A DNA stretch of 64,000 nucleotides, taken from positions 44,615,547 through 44,679,546 of the forward strand of contig CM044957.1 in the NCBI GenBank assembly GCA_024516035.1, in the 5' to 3' direction. The notes under the pieces were generated by a model that searched no databases, had not been told where the DNA came from, and was given only the letters and a program-made list of their open reading frames with translations. Positions 13,881 to 60,115 of the stretch are shown one piece after another; position 1 is the stretch's first letter, and every line of letters begins with the position of its first letter. A program made the position numbers and the translations under genes. Source of the stretch: Bactericera cockerelli. Taxonomy: Eukaryota > Arthropoda > Insecta > Hemiptera > Triozidae.

Positions 13881-14018
13881 TCACAGATTCAGAGGATTGT
13901 CCTGAACAAAGCCACCCGATGAGCACACATTCTTGGCGATGTCTCCTAGCTTGGAGTAGGAGTCCAGCTTCTTGCCGGAACTCAGGGCGGCGAGATTTTG
14001 TTCTACCCGTTCAGCAGC
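13881..14018 (-). CDS. ACADVL: ACADVL coding exon 10 (last)
   Basis: Acceptor tttgtttcag, then 45 codons starting AAERVEQNLAAL and ending in a TGA at 13881-13883. It matches the VLCAD C-terminus (AAARI..GMAALQS in human, then GG-V-x-NPL). Its phase is 0, which fits exon 9 ending after GAG. Confidence 0.93.
   Translation of the reverse strand, partial: AAERVEQNLAALSSGKKLDSYSKLGDIAKNVCSSGGFVQDNPLNL

Positions 14019-60115: not shown

Follow-up and report, generated by a model that had tools for sequence, protein, structure and literature searches.

Minisatellites carrying a 5' splice site in their unit at exon ends in a psyllid genome

Genes and repeat-spanned junctions in the window

The window, by which we mean the whole stretch of 64,000 nucleotides that was analysed, contains an ACADVL gene (13884..39938, minus strand) and a gene that we take to be LIN54 (48571..60115, plus strand), the CXC domain being the support for that name in this analysis. 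The ten coding exons of ACADVL were placed by protein homology: exons 1 to 5 lie at 39853-39938, 39391-39589, 38238-38456, 33036-33291 and 29322-29497, and exons 6 to 10 at 25921-26184, 24798-24966, 22697-22884, 18807-19019 and 13884-14018, all on the minus strand. The spliced protein of 635 aa is 91% identical to a protein from Cacopsylla melanoneura, 88% to one from Diaphorina citri and 92% to one further protein, on the strength of which we assign the window to a psyllid. The alignment with human VLCAD from residue 47 onwards shows a single one-residue gap, near the C-terminus, and where exon 3 and exons 6 to 9 join their neighbours there are no gaps against the psyllid proteins, an aberrant D. 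citri entry (within exon 7) excepted. Hence the introns are placed correctly and the reading frame gives no hint of newness. In the D. citri database protein the whole exon 7 region is aberrant, perhaps through an error of the gene model where a junction is duplicated.

LIN54 has 11 coding exons. Exon 9 (57089..57331, plus strand), the donor of which is amplified, encodes the CXC domain (Pfam TCR, E 4.5e-5). A one-base frame break interrupts this exon at 57236-57270, within G-rich sequence that separates ...FRPKIGK from ...ERRHTKGCNC, and is either an assembly error or real. Other repetitive sequences in the window include a purine-rich nested repeat at its start (1-925, units of 42, 117 and 222 bases) and, by eye, two transposons: an ACADVL intron contains an apparently complete one bounded by terminal inverted repeats (26985-28586, plus strand; presumably Tc1-like), and LIN54 intron 8 a remnant that retains terminal repeats (55570-56470, plus strand; presumably Mariner-like).

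A total of 38 junctions (18 in ACADVL and 20 in LIN54) were mapped and set by hand at GT/AG contexts. Local duplications were identified by means of an ungapped diagonal scan covering repeats within 600-1500 bases, which was used because BLAST self-comparison overlooked some short-period tandem repeats (e.g. 14169-14254). Seven of the 38 junctions lie inside local direct repeats, namely the acceptor of ACADVL exon 3, the donor of exon 6, the acceptor of exon 7, the donor of exon 8, the acceptor and donor of exon 9, and the donor of LIN54 exon 9. This bears out the junctions and exon numbers that the first-pass annotation had listed.

ACADVL exon 9 (18807..19019, minus strand; SVVLFGEAVES...LLAQVWCYE), gap-free against human VLCAD and the psyllid proteins, has arrays at both ends. 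Its donor array (15469..18824, minus strand), delimited by TRF, wraparound alignment and unit listing, holds about 98 units of some 30-35 bp in 15469-18340 according to wraparound alignment. The few exon-proximal units measure 41 bp and consist of exonic GTGTGGTGCTATGAG and a donor that begins with GTGAGTGTCGTATGG. A second copy of the 3' part of exon 9 is embedded in the array at ~18610-18700, and the donor context of the exon occurs at two places. By eye, a MITE-like insert bearing ~30-base terminal inverted repeats is seen inside the array at ~18341-18600. Units at 18096-18341 match at 95% and have no indels, whereas the interior (15469-18096) is full of single-base indels, as if short reads had polished the array edge only. 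With roughly 6-17 indels per 100 bases relative to one 31-bp reference unit, this interior allows the copy number to be given only approximately.

The acceptor array of exon 9, with a unit of ~35-40 bp in which TATTTCAG precedes the junction and AGTGTAGTTCT follows it, consists of a proximal (19009..19358, minus strand) and a distal piece (21711..21973, minus strand), set apart by ~2.35 kb that include a retroelement. We take this element, which has a long open frame at 19898-21709 (minus strand), to be of the non-LTR type; a Pfam search with the unmodified frame gave no match. A 601-base probe from it identified copies that are 98-100% identical on C8 and C7, hence recent movement is likely.

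The other ACADVL junction repeats are likewise on the minus strand. At the exon 8 donor the diagonal scan identified a 45-bp duplication, 96% identical at an offset of 261 (22417..22722), where by eye further partial units of ~36 bp occur and a dispersed repeat interrupts. The exon 7 acceptor is spanned by a 62-bp tandem duplication of about two copies that are 81% identical (24962..25092), the exon 6 donor by copies of the exon end and GTGAGT with other sequence between them (25593..25939), and the exon 3 acceptor by three copies of 63 bp, with TTTCAG before the junction and GAAGTCAATAACCCTCT behind it (38439..38630). In LIN54 the exon 9 donor array (57295..57822, plus strand) nests 9-10 units of 31 bp with about three of 84 bp, the latter made up of 37 exonic and 47 intronic bases. 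With head-to-tail units of ~10-100 bp in several copies, such arrays are minisatellites. Two arrays on the plus strand were counted as misses: 100 bp x 3 at 59549..59850, ~63 bases before the start of LIN54 exon 11, and a tandem duplication of 77 bp x 1.9 at 36369..36517.

Among the causes considered by the first-pass annotation was an assembly artefact, by transcript-guided scaffolding or, as we would add, by mis-joined reads. The interior indels of the ACADVL array resemble an unpolished long-read consensus, albeit partly true unit-length variation, and the frame break in LIN54 exon 9 is a second irregularity, so copy numbers may be inexact. However, hand measurement of the units examined in detail gave 6-57 intronic bases per unit, which contradicts a transcript-derived origin; substitutions are graded, transposable elements lie inside arrays and clean arrays exist at unrelated loci. 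We consider an artefact extremely unlikely.

Excess of repeats at splice junctions

The first-pass annotation held that repeats placed at random should not coincide with junctions this often, which in the window is sustained by a count of events and not by base coverage. By base coverage, seven of 38 junctions in repeats (6/38 at the highest cut-off) compare with ~4.6 expected, a non-significant difference across thresholds (p 0.15-0.31) because one expanded array covers ~7% of the span. When each array was collapsed to a single unit, a junction was contained in 7/15 events versus 0.71 expected (P = 1.6e-6), with P = 2e-4 for doubled and P = 0.003 for tripled footprints. The strongest events alone gave 5/9 (P = 4e-5 to 0.0085). 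Merging of the TRF and duplication scans into 15 events, and the choice of their footprints, were done manually; the misses are those at 14169, 22240, 23421, 30199, 36369, 38776, 46581 and 59549. Raw clusters contained a junction in 7/17, 7/15 and 7/14 cases at scores 18, 20 and 22, and in 4/11 at the stricter scores 25 and 30.

These last figures, the p value of ~0.2 for base coverage, and the fact that six of the seven junction matches belong to ACADVL alone are what one would expect if ordinary intronic minisatellites had merely been noticed near exons by selective reading. The event test, together with genome-wide motif counts that do not depend on any reader, largely refutes such a chance explanation, to which we give very little credence. 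A step in GC content between exon and intron was tried as a cause and rejected, matched and other junctions being alike (p 0.89). Exon GC is higher at repeat-spanned junctions (0.60 vs 0.48 over 150 bases, p 0.004; over 60 bases, p 0.04), a difference that is confounded because six of the seven matches are in GC-rich ACADVL.

Motif tests covered both strands of the genome (565 Mb, 1,032 contigs), in which the window occupies G000:C3:44615547-44679546. The donor-array pattern, three AGGTRAGT with gaps of 12-42 bases, gave 9,264 matches, versus 870 for the motif backwards, 615 for a GT to TG swap and 1,256 for the swap backwards, all controls of the same composition. Base frequency as the source of this excess was rejected, since single AGGTRAGT motifs number 70,780 versus 57,287 backwards, which leaves it to account for no more than a ~1.24-fold difference. 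In small local samples outside the two large donor arrays of the window, 14 donor and 18 control motifs were counted. Three copies of the fuller consensus CAGGTAAGT gave 568 matches versus 6 for the control. All these genome-wide totals are complete.

Since one long array yields many matches, distinct arrays were also counted among the places listed: 6 in ~4.77 Mb for the donor pattern, 13 in 74.1 Mb for the backwards control and 17 in 112.3 Mb for the swapped control. The resulting rate ratios are 7.2 (backwards, P = 7e-4) and 8.3 (swapped, P = 2.5e-4); they are approximate, as the single-motif listing shows plus-strand places alone and the listed places may thus not follow position strictly over both strands, and would be underestimates, as control arrays themselves include splice junctions. 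The acceptor pattern, three TTTCAGG, gave 692 matches versus 548 backwards and hence no clear excess, in a test of low power given that the acceptor consensus is short and degenerate. Individual acceptor arrays do exist, at exons 3, 7 and 9 in the window, where three of the seven junctions are acceptors, and at array L056.

We have thus shown that this psyllid genome holds many minisatellites with a 5' splice site in the unit, and that these are far commoner than arrays of the control motifs tried. The initial observation is real, and so is the non-randomness of donor arrays genome-wide. In the genome-wide test that the first-pass annotation had named, the donor half of its claim is strongly supported, and the acceptor half, at low power, is not.

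Exons and units at donor arrays

An array that begins on the final bases of a coding exon, with a donor in each unit, is backed by homology in seven genes: ACADVL, LIN54, AREL1 (a weak match, E 4e-4), a gene of the APBA1 type (PDZ exon, E 6e-31), CACTIN (Pfam E 3e-10), a RING gene (E 1e-8) and an LRP-type gene (YWTD). The triple AGGTRAGT matches listed were taken in list order and comprise six arrays in five unit families. Two of these six adjoin exons with homologues (AREL1 and the APBA1-type PDZ exon); L011 and L033, which have like units, adjoin an open frame behind a plausible acceptor, the exon at L009 is ambiguous, and the array L041 reached the end of the fetched stretch. For three copies of CAGGTAAGT the upstream side was viewed for seven of the nine arrays listed, which represent all six families, and here 2/7 adjoin exons with homologues (RING and LRP-type YWTD). 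L058, L059 and L062 have plausible open exons, that of L062 with a signal-peptide-like start, and L060 is ambiguous. Pfam contained no homologue for L059 and only sub-threshold matches for L060 and L062. An exonless copy of the LRP-type donor array, L064 (G000:C1:45466400-45467150), was observed ~6 kb away from it, hence arrays can be copied within a neighbourhood.

Four of the 13 listed backwards-control arrays were viewed, a non-random sample chosen partly for splice-site-like units. L057 adjoins the 60-bp donor array of the CACTIN exon, L054 ends an open exon, L056 is an acceptor array before an open exon that may resemble phosphoglucomutase 2, and L055 lacks a clear exon. Furthermore, 12 blindly placed 10-kb regions (120 kb) contained 20 local duplications, only one of which lies clearly at the end of an open frame, and AGGTRAGT was absent from all 19 TRF arrays in these regions. 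The one case, L044 (G000:C6:15000000-15009999), is a donor array at an open-exon end, with GTGAGT after TTG; its units include a long GT microsatellite shortly 3' of the splice site. The exon pieces of L054, L056 and L044 had no homologue in Pfam, NCBIfam or PDB, and no exon could be named at L009, L055, L060 and L064.

Such arrays bear on the possibility that slippage is an inherent tendency of AGGTRAGT, independent of any function as a splice site. While L009, L055 and L064 have no recognisable exon, as this would allow, other donors are also arrayed at exon ends (GTAAAT in CACTIN, GTAAGT after AGC in L054, GTGAGT in L044), the GT to TG swap shows no excess, and four donor-pattern arrays adjoin exons with homologues. 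An inherent property of the motif is therefore improbable.

Units examined in detail consist, by hand measurement, of the last 13-75 exonic bases plus the donor. Hand measurement of 13 arrays puts most of the unit on the 5' side of the junction (mean 0.69; t-test p 0.001, KS p 0.024) and its end a median of 13 bases beyond it, a geometry that carries no weight, since motif-found donor arrays had to include at least 6 downstream bases. Exon and intron share a few bases at the joins, by eye AGTAC in AREL1 and GTATG in L054, which would suit slippage as well.

Wraparound alignment of the ACADVL donor array gave substitutions of 0.2% in GTGAGT, 1.7% in the exonic part and 8.1% in the rest of the intronic part; with indels counted the figures are 7.7%, 7.4% and 26.9%. 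The near-invariance of the donor bases fits selection or recent homogenisation. In the AREL1 array 48/56 units have the standard length of 32 bp.

Past the first donor an in-frame stop occurs within two units in 5/7 arrays. In ACADVL, LIN54 and AREL1, three of these five, there is a second donor ahead of the stop, but its use would shift the frame. The reading frame stays open past the first donor in the APBA1 and L054 arrays. Related psyllid proteins show a normal join at the ACADVL exons. Given the in-frame stops, the first donor is probably the one used, and the selection for spare splice sites suggested by the first-pass annotation finds no support here.

Selection could nevertheless keep or expand donor arrays in a broader sense, through recruitment of U1 snRNP, exon definition or suppression of premature polyadenylation as well as through spare donors. 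This would accord with an excess for donors and none clear for acceptors, with an ACADVL exon end and GTGAGT that are nearly free of substitutions next to a variable remainder, with the uniform unit length in AREL1, and with the places listed, where the donor pattern has fewer, longer arrays (6) than the controls have (13 and 17). The in-frame stops just described speak against it, and recent homogenisation would also account for identical cores, so that we regard selection as an unlikely explanation of the arrays.

Origin of the arrays and comparison with known systems

Among the options put forward by the first-pass annotation, a duplication process favoured at splice sites, for which R-loops, pausing or slippage are candidate causes, fits best, though not with the equal action at both splice sites it implied, in view of the acceptor pattern that lacks a clear excess. 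The explanation that we consider probable is that tandem duplications often arise across an exon end and its donor, and that splicing from the first donor leaves the copies concealed in the intron, where arrays can expand. Short tandem duplications across exon end and donor would form frequently, by fill-in of breaks or by slippage. Their cost would be low, as the exon-proximal donor would still be used and further copies would fall into the intron. There the array would grow and shrink as any minisatellite, and transposable elements would insert. Acceptor duplications would also form, but extra acceptors upstream would compete with the true one and may be purged more often; the bias towards donors among junction arrays may be due to this competition. 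According to PMC8355091, fill-in by Pol alpha-primase is required when small tandem duplications form at breaks whose 3' overhangs are complementary.

The low cost of hidden copies by itself leaves the excess of donors over arbitrary motifs unaccounted for. That excess would require either a mutational bias towards exon ends or selection that favours numerous donors, and the data fit either. A bolder version, which we put forward tentatively and consider less probable, is that splice donors are germline duplication hot spots in this lineage. A process linked to recognition of the donor, or to transcription at the exon end, would then recopy exon end and donor, and introns would lengthen from their 5' side and accumulate U1-binding sites, which may affect transcription or splicing.

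If donors are preferred seeds of duplication, duplication of DNA would be coupled to gene structure, a link that is usually just suspected. It would also provide a route to intron lengthening, as well as raw material for alternative donors and intron gain. For annotation the arrays are a hazard, since they present false but perfect donors in series and may disrupt gene models.

Short tandem duplications with splice signals are best known from models of intron gain. Intron gain by tandem duplication of AGGT-containing segments reportedly goes back to Rogers 1989, with Hellsten 2011 said to treat the same theme. The first-pass annotation had invoked this type of intron change, and the idea gains from the fact that a tandem duplication with AGGT and splice signals is what both have in common; according to the part of PMC4974935 available to us, the duplication in a potato RdRp gene likewise crosses an intron-exon boundary. 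The model, however, requires an exonic duplicate in which two copies of AGGT become the ends of a new intron, whereas the units here span the exon-intron boundary. No new intron is seen in our data; existing introns lengthen at their ends, with dozens of copies and a genome-wide excess of donor arrays. At the exon 3, 7 and 9 joins the ACADVL protein is gap-free relative to its human and psyllid counterparts, which argues against the intron change proposed. Insertion of introner-like elements would be a variant of such gain, but by eye the units differ from gene to gene, save for pairs or triples of like arrays on one contig. Intron gain of either kind is thus hardly credible as the source of the arrays.

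Other instances of intron-associated duplication differ in what is repeated. For novel intron positions in Drosophila, PMC2891723 describes, in the text seen, regional tandem duplication with a proto-splice site, in single events by which duplicated exonic sequence became intron. Rogers and Bendich 2025 (PMC11782384, in part) report direct repeats of 4-30 bp that pair the two borders of one intron and are traces of insertion; both concern direct repeats at splice junctions, but those of the psyllid repeat one border in tandem. NAGNAG and GYNNGY tandem alternative splice sites, as far as the sources at hand describe them, also provide several competing sites per junction, at distances of 2-12 bases, whereas the psyllid copies are 24 to ~130 bases apart and number up to ~98.

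With intronic minisatellites and VNTRs the psyllid arrays share unit length, head-to-tail copies, copy variation and intron expansion; what sets them apart is a unit that is tied to an exon end and includes the 5' splice site. PMC12783039, in the portion consulted, describes intronic minisatellites of earthworm metallothionein genes and does not place them on splice sites. In the open-access literature, judged mostly by titles and the starts of abstracts, we recognised no description of donor-seeded arrays. Tandem duplication and minisatellites at splice junctions are known; the proposed seeding of arrays on donors looks pervasive in this genome.
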